Shown here piece after piece: positions 45,424 through 48,450 of a stretch of 64,000 nt of DNA. This stretch comes from Verrucomicrobiales bacterium. GTDB lineage: Bacteria > Verrucomicrobiota > Verrucomicrobiia > Verrucomicrobiales > DEV007. Numbering within the stretch: position 1 is the first letter of the stretch; every line of letters begins with the position of its first letter. Under the pieces are notes generated by a model. It was not told the origin of the DNA. It saw only the letters and a list, made by a program, of their open reading frames with translations, and ran no database searches. The DNA lies in the NCBI GenBank assembly GCA_029213065.1, contig JARGPH010000020.1:16124-80123 (forward strand), read 5' to 3'. The position numbers and the translations under genes are program-made.

Positions 45424-45475
45424 GCACCGTAAAAAGGTGGGAAGGTCAGAAAGTAGAAAGGTCGGATGGGCTTCG
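45424..45475 (+). repeat. Purine-rich dispersed repeat, copy downstream of cysN
   Basis: The stretch has CGTAAAAAGGTGGGAAGGT, GAAAGTAGAAAGG and GTCGGATGGGC, and aligns with the copy at 48396-48450. A related reversed tract (GACTTTCTCACCTTCTAAC) is at 45603-45621. These tracts fill much of the 292-bp gap 45360-45651, in which no gene is seen. Confidence 0.7.
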
Positions 45476-45651
45476 GGCCACGTTTTTGGCAAACGCGGCT
45501 ACTTAATCAATAGCTGCCGTTGCGAGACGGTGGTTCGTAAAGACTCAGCGCATTCCCCGAAGCGAGACGCTTGCATCGCTTCTTTTCACCGAAAAGAAAG
45601 CCGACTTTCTCACCTTCTAACTTTGCCACTTTCATACGCGGCCCCGGGCCG

Positions 45652-46950
45652 CTACACGATCATCCCTGCGGCGACCGTTTCGTTGGTCTGGGCGTCGATG
45701 AGAATGAAGCTTCCGGTGTTGCGGTTGCGGCGATAGGAATCGTAGAGCAACGGCGCGGAGGTCCGGAGCGTGATGCGTCCAATCTCGTTGAGTCCGAAGG
45801 TGGTGTCGTCTTCGATTTTGTGCAGGGTATTGATGTTCACCTTGTATTTAATCTCCTGGACGATCGCTTTCACCTCTTTGCTGGTGTGGCGGAGGATGTA
45901 TTTGCCGCGGGGCGTGAGTTGCTTGTTTTCTGAAAACCAGCAGACCATCGCCTCGATCTCCTGCCCTTTTTCGGGCGGGTTGTTGGCTTTGACGATCATG
46001 TCGCCGCGGCTGATGTCGATCTCGTCTTCGAGGGTGATCACTGCGGAAAGAGGGGCAAAAACCTCCTCCATCTGTTCGCCGTTTGTCTCGATCGTTTTGA
46101 TTTTTGTGGTGAAGCCGGATGGCTGGACCGTCACTTCGTCGCCGGGTTTGAAGACGCCTCCGGCAACGCGACCGGCGTAACCGCGGAAGTCGTGATACTC
46201 GTCGGAGTGCGGGCGGATCACCCACTGGACGGGGAAGCGCGCGTCGACGTGGTTGTGATCGGAGCCGATGTAAACAGACTCGAGATGGTAAAGCATCGTC
46301 GGTCCGTCATACCAGGGCATGTTTTCTGATTTGTCGACGACGTTGTCACCGTGGAGGGCGCTGATCGGAATTGTGACCATGTCGACGATGTTGTCGAGGC
46401 GTGAAGCGAACTCTTCGAATTCGGACTGAATTTCGTTGAAGCGCTCCTCGCTGTGGTCGACGAGGTCCATCTTGTTCACTGCAACGATGACGTGGCGGAT
46501 CCGAAGAAGATTCGCGATAAAGGCGTGACGGCAGGTTTGCTCGATCACTCCGGTGCGGGCGTCGACAAGGATGATAGCAAGGTTCGCGGTCGAGGCACCT
46601 GTGACCATGTTCCGGGTGTACTGGATGTGTCCCGGAGTATCAGCGATGATAAATTTACGCTTCGGAGTCGCGAAGTAGCGGTAGGCCACGTCGATGGTGA
46701 TTCCCTGTTCGCGCTCGGCACGAAGGCCATCGGTGAGAAGGGCGAGGTTGACGTGCTCGTCGCCGCGTTTCTTGGAATCGGCTTCAACAGCCACCATCTG
46801 ATCGTCGAAAGTATTTTTCGAATCATAGAGAAGTCGGCCAATGAGAGTGGACTTGCCGTCGTCGACGCTGCCTGCTGTCGTGAAACGCAGAAGGTCCATG
46901 TCGAGGTAACCGTCGTCGGTAGGAGGGGTGAGCGTTGGGTTTTCGGTCAT
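45652..46950 (-). CDS. cysN: Sulfate adenylyltransferase, GTPase subunit
   Basis: A 432-residue CysN that couples GTP hydrolysis to APS synthesis by CysD. The translation-factor-type GTPase domain has the P-loop SVDDGKSTLIGRLLYD, switch II DTPGHIQYTRNMVTGAS and NKMDLV. EF-Tu-like domains 2 and 3 follow. No C-terminal APS-kinase fusion is present, consistent with a separate cysC. In most operons cysN follows cysD directly; here an S23-family gene sits in between. Confidence 0.95.
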   Translation of the reverse strand: MTENPTLTPPTDDGYLDMDLLRFTTAGSVDDGKSTLIGRLLYDSKNTFDDQMVAVEADSKKRGDEHVNLALLTDGLRAEREQGITIDVAYRYFATPKRKFIIADTPGHIQYTRNMVTGASTANLAIILVDARTGVIEQTCRHAFIANLLRIRHVIVAVNKMDLVDHSEERFNEIQSEFEEFASRLDNIVDMVTIPISALHGDNVVDKSENMPWYDGPTMLYHLESVYIGSDHNHVDARFPVQWVIRPHSDEYHDFRGYAGRVAGGVFKPGDEVTVQPSGFTTKIKTIETNGEQMEEVFAPLSAVITLEDEIDISRGDMIVKANNPPEKGQEIEAMVCWFSENKQLTPRGKYILRHTSKEVKAIVQEIKYKVNINTLHKIEDDTTFGLNEIGRITLRTSAPLLYDSYRRNRNTGSFILIDAQTNETVAAGMIV

Positions 46951-46960
46951 CGTGAAATTG

Positions 46961-46996
46961 GGTAAGAAGGTTGGAAAGTGGGAAGGTGAGAAAGTG
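46961..46996 (+). repeat. Left purine-rich flank of the S23 gene
   Basis: The tract has the words GTAAGAAGG, TTGGAAAGTG, GGAAGGTGAG and AAAGTG. It is the inverted counterpart of the tract at 47409-47443 on the other side of the S23-family gene. Confidence 0.75.
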
Positions 46997-47028
46997 CTTT
47001 TGCGGTCGTCAGGTGTGGTTGCCCTATT

Positions 47029-47406
47029 TTAATTTTTTCGGACGCTTGATTCGAGTGCGGAAATGCTGCGGGAAAGTTTTTCAGAGTTGCTTCGGTAGGA
47101 TTGGGCGCTTTCGGAATTGAGGTAGCCGAGGTCTTCGGCGAGGTAGAGCATGGAACGGACTTCTCCGCAGGAGGCTTTTGCAATTTTTAGAAATCTGGCA
47201 AATTCAGTTTGATAGCCGCGCTCAAATCCTTCTGCGATATTGTTCATAACTGATACTGAGGCTCGTTGAATCTGATCTCGGAATCCAAAGTCCCGGGATG
47301 CTGAGGTCTGATCGCCAAATTCGCGATACAGTTGGCTTGCCTGAACTCGAGCGTCCTGCCAAACCCTTAAATCTTCAAATCGCTCTGCAAAGTTCGATCG
47401 GCTCAT
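47029..47406 (-). CDS. S23/IVP four-helix-bundle protein (23S rRNA-intervening-sequence protein family)
   Basis: A 125-residue all-helical protein. FEDLRVWQDARVQASQLYREF, FGFRDQIQRASVSVMNNIAEGFERG, FARFLKIAKASCGEVRSMLYLAEDLGYL and LSRSISALESSVRK correspond to the four helices of the TIGR02436 family. First described inside 23S rRNA intervening sequences, the family is also found as stray genes in intergenic spaces and is distantly related to the Avd protein of diversity-generating retroelements. Function is unknown. Here it is inserted between cysD and cysN on the operon strand and flanked by inverted purine-rich repeats. The ATG start at 47406 directly follows AGAAGGTG from the right repeat, which may serve as its ribosome-binding site. 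Confidence 0.92.
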   Translation of the reverse strand: MSRSNFAERFEDLRVWQDARVQASQLYREFGDQTSASRDFGFRDQIQRASVSVMNNIAEGFERGYQTEFARFLKIAKASCGEVRSMLYLAEDLGYLNSESAQSYRSNSEKLSRSISALESSVRKN

Positions 47407-47408
47407 CA

Positions 47409-47443
47409 CCTTCTTACTTTCCTACCTTTGCACATTCCTACTC
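47409..47443 (-). repeat. Right purine-rich flank of the S23 gene
   Basis: Read on the reverse strand it has AGAGTAGGAATG, then AAAGGTAGGAAAGTAAGAAGG. It points towards the S23 gene, as does the left flank, so the two form an inverted pair. Confidence 0.75.
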
Positions 47444-47461: not shown

Positions 47462-48379
47462 CTAGAAGTAGCCCTCCTTCTTACGGTCTTCCATCGCGGT
47501 TTCTGAGCGTTTGTCGTCGGCTCTTGTGCCTCGTTCCGTTTCGCGGGCGGTGGCGACTTCCTGGATGATGGCGTCGAGATCGCTTGCGTCGGAATAGACG
47601 GCTCCGGTGCAGGTCATGTCTCCGATGGTGCGGAAGCGGACTGTGGCATCTTTTTCGACGCGCTCGCCTTCCTGCGGCACGACGACGTCTGAAATTGCGA
47701 GCATCGCTCCGGCGCGGTGAACGACGTCACGTTTGTGGGAGAAGTATAGATTGGGGAGAGGAATTTCCTCGGCCTTGATATACTGCCAGATGTCCATCTC
47801 GGTCCAGTTGGAGAGCGGGAAAACGCGGAAGTTTTCGCCGTGATGCTTCCGACCGTTGAAGAGGTTCCAGAGCTCGGGGCGCTGGTTCTTGGGATCCCAC
47901 TGACCGAAGTCATCGCGGTGGGAAAAGAAGCGTTCTTTGGCACGGGCTTTTTCCTCGTCGCGTCGACCGCCGCCGAGGCAGGCGTCGTAGTTGTTGTCTT
48001 CGATCGCATCGAGAAGTGTCACCGTCTGGAGTGAGTTCCGGCTCGCGAAGGGGCCCTTTTCCTCCTGAACGCGGCCCTGGTCGATGGAATCCTGGACCAA
48101 TGCCACTTTTAAGTCGGCGCGAATTTCTTCGGCGTAGCTGTCGCGGTATTCGAGCGTTTCGTCGAAATTGTGTCCCGTGTCGACATGGAGCAAAGGGAAG
48201 GGAAGGCGCGATGGGAAGAAGGCTTTCTTCGCAAGATAAGCCATGACGATGGAATCTTTACCTCCTGAGAAAAGCAGGGCGGGGCGTTCGAATTGCGCCG
48301 CAGTTTCCCGCAGGATGAAGATGGCCTCGGACTCAAGCTGAGCGAGGTGATTGACTCGGTAGGAATGTCGTTTTTCCAT
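47462..48379 (-). CDS. cysD: Sulfate adenylyltransferase, catalytic subunit
   Basis: A 305-residue CysD that adenylates sulfate to APS. The PP-loop ATP-pyrophosphatase motif LLFSGGKDSIVMAYLA is followed by FPLLHVDTGHNFDETLEYRD, ACLGGGRRDEEKARAKERFFS and NWTEMDIWQYIK. The C-terminus ends in RKKEGYF, as is usual. It needs CysN for efficient turnover; both are in this operon. Confidence 0.96.
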   Translation of the reverse strand: MEKRHSYRVNHLAQLESEAIFILRETAAQFERPALLFSGGKDSIVMAYLAKKAFFPSRLPFPLLHVDTGHNFDETLEYRDSYAEEIRADLKVALVQDSIDQGRVQEEKGPFASRNSLQTVTLLDAIEDNNYDACLGGGRRDEEKARAKERFFSHRDDFGQWDPKNQRPELWNLFNGRKHHGENFRVFPLSNWTEMDIWQYIKAEEIPLPNLYFSHKRDVVHRAGAMLAISDVVVPQEGERVEKDATVRFRTIGDMTCTGAVYSDASDLDAIIQEVATARETERGTRADDKRSETAMEDRKKEGYF

Positions 48380-48395
48380 AGTGGTTTGGCGCTGC

Positions 48396-48450
48396 GCGCC
48401 GTAAAAGGTGAAAAAGTTAAAGGTAAGAAAGTAGGAATGTCGGATGGGCT
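48396..48450 (+). repeat. Purine-rich dispersed repeat, copy between cysC and cysD
   Basis: The stretch has CCGTAAAAGGTG, AAAGGTAAGAAAGTAGGAA and GTCGGATGGGC, matching the copy at 45424-45475 at both ends and differing in the middle. It fills the 112-bp intergenic space within the cys operon. Confidence 0.7.

Follow-up and report, generated by a model that had tools for sequence, protein, structure and literature searches.

An S23-Family Gene and Its Two Inward Repeat Arrays as a Probable Operon-Dwelling Cassette Between cysD and cysN

An intact gene of the S23/IVP family lies between cysD and cysN of a Verrucomicrobiales bacterium, and it is bracketed by two arrays of short, imperfect repeats that point inward at it. 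We consider it probable, at roughly 0.6, that the gene and its two arrays are one genetic unit: an operon-dwelling cassette whose gain, loss, and exchange involve the whole unit, whose arms can pair with each other, and whose S23 protein most likely recognizes its own arrays.

The S23 Gene and Its Two Arms

cysD and cysN normally touch. In the stretch of DNA analyzed here (64,000 nucleotides, hereafter the window), cysD, the S23 gene, and cysN are all on the minus strand, with the S23 gene in the middle. The features of the locus and its surroundings are as follows.

45429-45462, plus: four-unit left half of an inward array pair that has no S23 and stands between cysN and a tRNA gene (array scan)
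45604-45637, minus: right half of the same pair, four units, spacer of about 142 nt (array scan)
45652-46950, minus: cysN, the downstream neighbor (GTP_EFTU and GTP-eEF1A_C domains; 82-87% identity to congeners)
46962-46995, plus: downstream arm, four imperfect octamers directed back toward the S23 gene from the other strand
47029-47409, minus: S23/IVP (PF05635) gene, intact, 126 aa (Pfam profile match)
47408-47441, minus: upstream arm, (GTNNNNNN)x4-GT, four imperfect octamers reading into the S23 gene
47462-48379, minus: cysD, the upstream neighbor (PAPS_reduct domain), which adjoins cysN in congeners without S23
48401-48440, plus: solo array of five units on the upstream side of cysD (array scan)

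A preliminary description had placed an S23-family gene with inward purine-rich flanks at this position, and the observation is confirmed. The protein matches the PF05635 (23S_rRNA_IVP) profile at 113.3 bits against a curated cut-off of 33.8 (E = 7.8e-33), has 2gsc and 2rld as its relatives in the Protein Data Bank, and starts at either a GTG at 47409 or an ATG at 47406. G+C content is 48% in the S23 gene vs. 56-57% in its neighbors. According to the open reading frames of the window and Pfam, S23 is the sole gene between the arms and no transposase gene lies there; no direct repeats longer than 13 nt were found around the cassette. An Rfam scan of the whole window returned two tRNAs only, and the cassette is not within an rRNA gene.

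The purine-rich tracts proved to be four-octamer arrays, each unit consisting of GT and then six bases, mostly purines. The upstream arm reads GTAGGAAT GTGCAAAG GTAGGAAA GTAAGAAG GT on the minus strand, and the downstream arm reads GTAAGAAG GTTGGAAA GTGGGAAG GTGAGAAA GT on the plus strand. In the predicted fold of the transcript, the downstream arm pairs with the upstream arm, and the folding energy of the whole cassette RNA is ordinary (z ~ +1). The upstream arm overlaps the likely ribosome-binding region of the S23 gene. The earlier suggestion that this tract supplies the ribosome-binding site is plausible here, where a purine-rich array stands directly before the start codon, but it is not general, because the CTTGGAT or AGTTTTC arms of other S23 genes have no Shine-Dalgarno sequence.

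Altogether, the window holds five octamer arrays of 4-5 units, compared with zero arrays of at least three units in shuffled windows. The only structured RNA that Rfam detected at array loci is a tRNA. A small palindrome, GGCGCTGCGCGCC, at 48388-48400 abuts the solo array, many arms have a similar G+C-rich palindrome immediately beyond them (e.g., AAAATCGCCGCGGGCGATTTT, which follows cysD in locus L127), and CGGATGGGC is the terminal sequence of several solo arrays.

Presence, Absence, and Exchange at the Same Site

A cysN match was present in 20 genomes of the genus, and in 19 of these the gap between cysD and cysN was informative. An S23 gene is present in 8 of the 19, the window's genome included, and the gap then spans about 510-565 nt; in the other 11 it is absent, and the gap is 44-78 nt. 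This pattern backs the word "inserted" used in the preliminary description, and it runs counter to the refuting case, in which every relative would retain the gene between unrelated flanks. All eight S23-bearing loci have purine tracts before the gene and pyrimidine tracts after it; an automatic scan recovered arrays of at least three units on both sides in seven of them (the arrays of L125 are degenerate) and exactly four units in 14 of 20 arms at this site. Ten of the 11 S23-less loci are devoid of any array. The exception, L115, retains a single right arm of four units, a likely remnant that suggests the loss of S23 at least once at cysD-cysN. The S23-less intergenic regions are too diverged for an exact empty-site alignment.

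The gene has also been exchanged at this fixed site. The CysD+CysN tree groups L114 with L123 (support 100/99), whereas the tree of the S23 copies groups the window with L123 (support 100/98). In an approximately unbiased (AU) test, for which the groups were chosen after inspection of the distance table, the L114+L123 grouping is rejected by S23 (p-AU 0.004) and the window+L123 grouping by CysD+CysN (p-AU 0.0017). Octamer-type arms are common to the window and L123, whereas the arms of L114 are mostly heptamers. The conflict between the host and S23 trees, together with the common octamer arms, suggests that the gene and its arms moved together relative to the flanking genes, by reinsertion or recombination.

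Inverted Flanks Across the Family and Across Phyla

PF05635 matches occur in 37 of 59 genomes of the same family. When the left flank was scored against the reverse complement of the right flank, the median was 31.5 for 76 S23 genes of the family vs. 16 for 142 control genes taken from the same loci, and 56 of the 76 exceeded the 99th percentile of the controls. A GTDB scan with the window S23 protein returned 80 loci from Verrucomicrobiota, Bacteroidota, Planctomycetota, Kiritimatiellota, Chlamydiota, Patescibacteria, and other phyla. The inverted flank score lies above the 99th percentile of random windows in 57 of 77 cross-phylum S23 loci from 13 named phyla, a set that overlaps the family set in part and is biased toward closer relatives, since the window protein was the sole query. 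Of 134 cassettes, 82% have a predicted transcript in which the 80-nt flanks pair with each other over at least 15 bp, compared with 26% of controls. Arms thus recur at S23 genes across phyla, they accompany the gene wherever it is present at cysD-cysN and are gone or down to one where it is absent, and the S23 tree departs from that of its neighbors, all of which bears out the earlier impression of a self-contained cassette.

Neighboring arrays within 700 nt of each other face inward in 30 cases and outward in 2, and the upstream neighbor is on the same strand as the S23 gene in 64 of 68 resolved cases. Four units is the commonest length of the GT-type arrays at S23 flanks (19 left, 14 right), as a mode and not a rule. 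Inward array pairs without S23 were found in the window, L034, L216, L244, and L245, in addition to many solo arrays. Assemblies probably undercount S23 cassettes, because contigs often end in or near arrays (e.g., L052, L141, L179, L181).

Several other candidate features were set aside. Direct-repeat flanks are not enriched as a general rule (2 of 76 in the family set), the 85-nt hairpin on contig C65 (see below) being a single case. No general excess of basic S23 proteins was seen (median pI 7.8), and a 1277-aa frame around the S23 gene on contig C56 of genome G047 is an artefact of a run of N.

The Array Sequence Follows the S23 Protein

The array motif varies from gene to gene, and it tracks the S23 protein and not the host. 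The window's genome has three S23 genes in total. Beside the gene at cysD-cysN, one lies 3' of pheS, where CTTGGAT/TTGGGCG heptamers run to the contig end, and one (L053, contig C65, 40579-41204) is situated between a gyrB/parE-like and a gyrA/parC-like gene, with a copy of an 85-nt hairpin on each side, both in the same orientation. The hairpin stem, CTTTTTCTTAATCCTAATCTTAATCC, is present at dozens of places in the genome, as a REP element would be. The expectation that every S23 gene of the genome carries the same flanks therefore failed: repeat flanks are found at all three, with a different motif at each.

Among pairs without detected homologous neighbors, the more alike two S23 proteins are, the more similar their arrays tend to be. 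None of 500 label permutations gave a correlation as high as the observed one, a count that serves as a guide and not as an exact probability, because the pairs are non-independent and a few contig-end pairs from the same site may remain. Similar arrays occur in 2-3% of S23 pairs below 40% identity, which is the background, and in 58% of pairs at 60-80% identity. The host background does not explain this trend, since arrays are similar in only 1 of 38 same-genome pairs below 45% identity but in 35-39% of pairs that span two phyla at 50-60% identity. Genome G016 holds three S23 paralogues at different sites (L110, L167, and L175), which are 70-76% identical and whose 90-nt flanks were not scored as similar; these three are the best candidates for recent within-genome spread.

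Operon Slots and Dispersed Array-Only Copies

S23 genes recur in a set of operon slots, namely cysD-cysN, pheS-pheT, sucC-sucD, nuoI-nuoJ, the gyrB-gyrA type, metK-ahcY, and leuA-leuC, where names other than cysD and cysN are putative, being read from the sequences. S23 genes between two ExbD-like genes were also observed (L209, L212, L229, L243, L247), mostly in Kiritimatiellota genomes. Site labels cluster on the S23 tree, with 17 changes vs. 53.8 when shuffled, so sites are stable over long times and movement is rare; sucC-sucD, metK-ahcY, and one further slot each show at least three changes on well-supported branches. Among the S23 loci compared, no transposition event, target-site duplication, or mobilizing enzyme was found.

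Arrays are also dispersed through genomes with no S23 gene beside them. In the window's genome, the octamer pattern has 74 matches vs. 23 for the reversed control, AAAAGGT has 49 vs. 0, and CTTGGAT has 52 vs. 22, the reversed pattern in this last case being similar to CTTGGAT itself. Across 25 genomes, CTTGGAT matches number 52, 22, 22, and 228 in the four known to hold a CTTGGAT-armed S23 gene at pheST and 0-1 in 20 of the remaining 21; the last has 7 matches, to a CTTGGTT variant, the same number as its control. In five S23-less congeners, AAAAGGT arrays are either missing or no commoner than in the control, and several S23-bearing congeners have many of them. The correlation with S23 presence is less clean for octamer and TTAATCC arrays; for instance, octamer arrays also occur in the S23-less genomes G058 and G033, and the window's genome contains CAGTTTTC arrays although its assembly has no S23 gene to match them. 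Some array families are therefore without a tie to a cognate S23. The preliminary description had also raised mobilization in trans. Matching array-only copies in S23-bearing genomes are compatible with it, but neither a movement nor an enzyme responsible for it was detected.

Proposed Mechanism and Alternative Explanations

The cassette sits in sense orientation between operon genes and would have no promoter of its own. On the polycistronic mRNA, its two arms would pair and enclose the S23 reading frame, like the ends of 23S rRNA intervening sequences, and the paired arms may be cut in RNase III-type processing, as in Coxiella. The S23 protein most likely binds its own arrays; such recognition would lead both to the co-variation of array and protein and to the build-up of matching array-only copies in the same genome, which may have been dispersed in trans. 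A further-reaching reading can be put forward tentatively, namely that S23 and its cognate arms make up a distinct, widespread class of minimal operon-dwelling mobile element, in which a ring-shaped, apparently non-catalytic protein would recognize the short tandem array and drive the spread of the gene and of array-only copies via host enzymes.

The strongest alternative, which we nonetheless regard as rather unlikely, is that S23 has become a domesticated RNA-binding regulator, its operon slot and arrays being regulatory sites that tune paired subunit genes and not remnants of mobility. The slots recur between functionally paired genes, S23 persists at a site for long times, solo arrays adjoin start codons, and dN/dS is about 0.11 among the cysD-cysN copies, which indicates purifying selection with dS near saturation. 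On the other hand, a regulator of these genes is hard to reconcile with its occurrence at cysD-cysN in a minority of congeners, with motifs that differ among the S23 genes of one genome, with the lack of a function common to the slots, and with the exchange of S23 independently of its neighbor genes.

It is very improbable that S23 has a reverse transcriptase as its partner, in the manner of Avd in diversity-generating retroelements, and that the arrays spread through cDNA. PF05635 does resemble Avd (PMC10053308), and the Avd/bAvd fold is related to S23 according to the comparison of 2GSC with 4DWL cited there. However, reverse transcriptase was rejected as an S23 partner in the window's genome, which has no RVT_1 match, and the domain is equally absent from G008, G027, G041, G043, and G047. 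Its absence from the window's genome and from several array-rich relatives speaks against an Avd-type route; G008 alone has 16 S23 matches and 209 CAGTTTTC array matches. The cassette also differs from these retroelements in that no template or variable repeats were seen around it.

Ordinary microsatellites, i.e., slippage products that lie near S23 genes by chance, are largely refuted by the control genes of the same loci, which have no matched inverted arrays. Some arrays are long and perfect, as expected from slippage, but the arms are mostly imperfect, mutually inverted, gene-specific, and common to related S23 proteins across phyla, and a direct orientation of flanks is not enriched. Equally remote is the idea of plain operon terminator or processing hairpins unrelated to S23, to which the predicted pairing of the arms and the small G+C-rich palindromes beside some arrays would conform, since S23-less congeners have no arms at the same site (10 of 11) and the arm sequence tracks the S23 protein.

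Relation to Known Systems and Significance

To our knowledge, S23 is a widespread, uncharacterized protein family without known function, known mainly from rRNA intervening sequences, and it has no known nuclease or transposase domain. S23 reading frames within rRNA intervening sequences with paired ends have been described before (PMC4990558; PMC11270868). The intervening sequence of Coxiella burnetii 23S rRNA has a 28-bp stem of inverted ends and is excised by RNase III, and the sporadic distribution of such sequences with an S23 reading frame has been attributed to horizontal transfer (PMC4990558). A solved Xanthomonas S23 homologue, XCC0516, is a ring-shaped homopentamer, as cited in the same paper. 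The cassette is like these intervening sequences in that an S23-family reading frame lies in an element whose inverted ends can pair, here by predicted fold. Unlike them, it lies between protein-coding operon genes and not in rRNA, its arms consist of imperfect 7-8-nt units in arrays that differ from gene to gene, and the genome contains dispersed array-only copies.

In REP elements with RAYT transposases, and in MITEs, inverted repeats likewise flank a gene, and many copies of the repeats without the gene lie elsewhere in the genome. The S23 cassette resembles them in its dispersed gene-less copies, some of which are inverted pairs, and differs in that its arms are degenerate tandem arrays and not palindromes with fixed termini. 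Like the S23 arrays, the STRR of cyanobacteria consist of short units (about 7 nt) in tandem and are scattered between genes. The same likeness extends to the TAACTGA heptameric intergenic arrays of Beggiatoaceae, for which a repeat-binding protein as a mobile element has been speculated (PMC4679880). Unlike those arrays, for which that paper mentions no S23, the arrays here are linked to S23.

Within the open-access literature, no description of operon-dwelling S23 cassettes with gene-specific repeat arms was found. The inverted arms as a rule of the family, the co-variation of arm and protein, the exchange at a fixed site, and the confinement of the CTTGGAT array family to genomes with a CTTGGAT-armed S23 were computed here. 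For the S23 family, the cognate arms are a directly testable candidate ligand. They also provide a possible source for some of the short repeat arrays found throughout bacterial genomes, and they point to rRNA intervening sequences as a special case of a more general element that dwells in operons.
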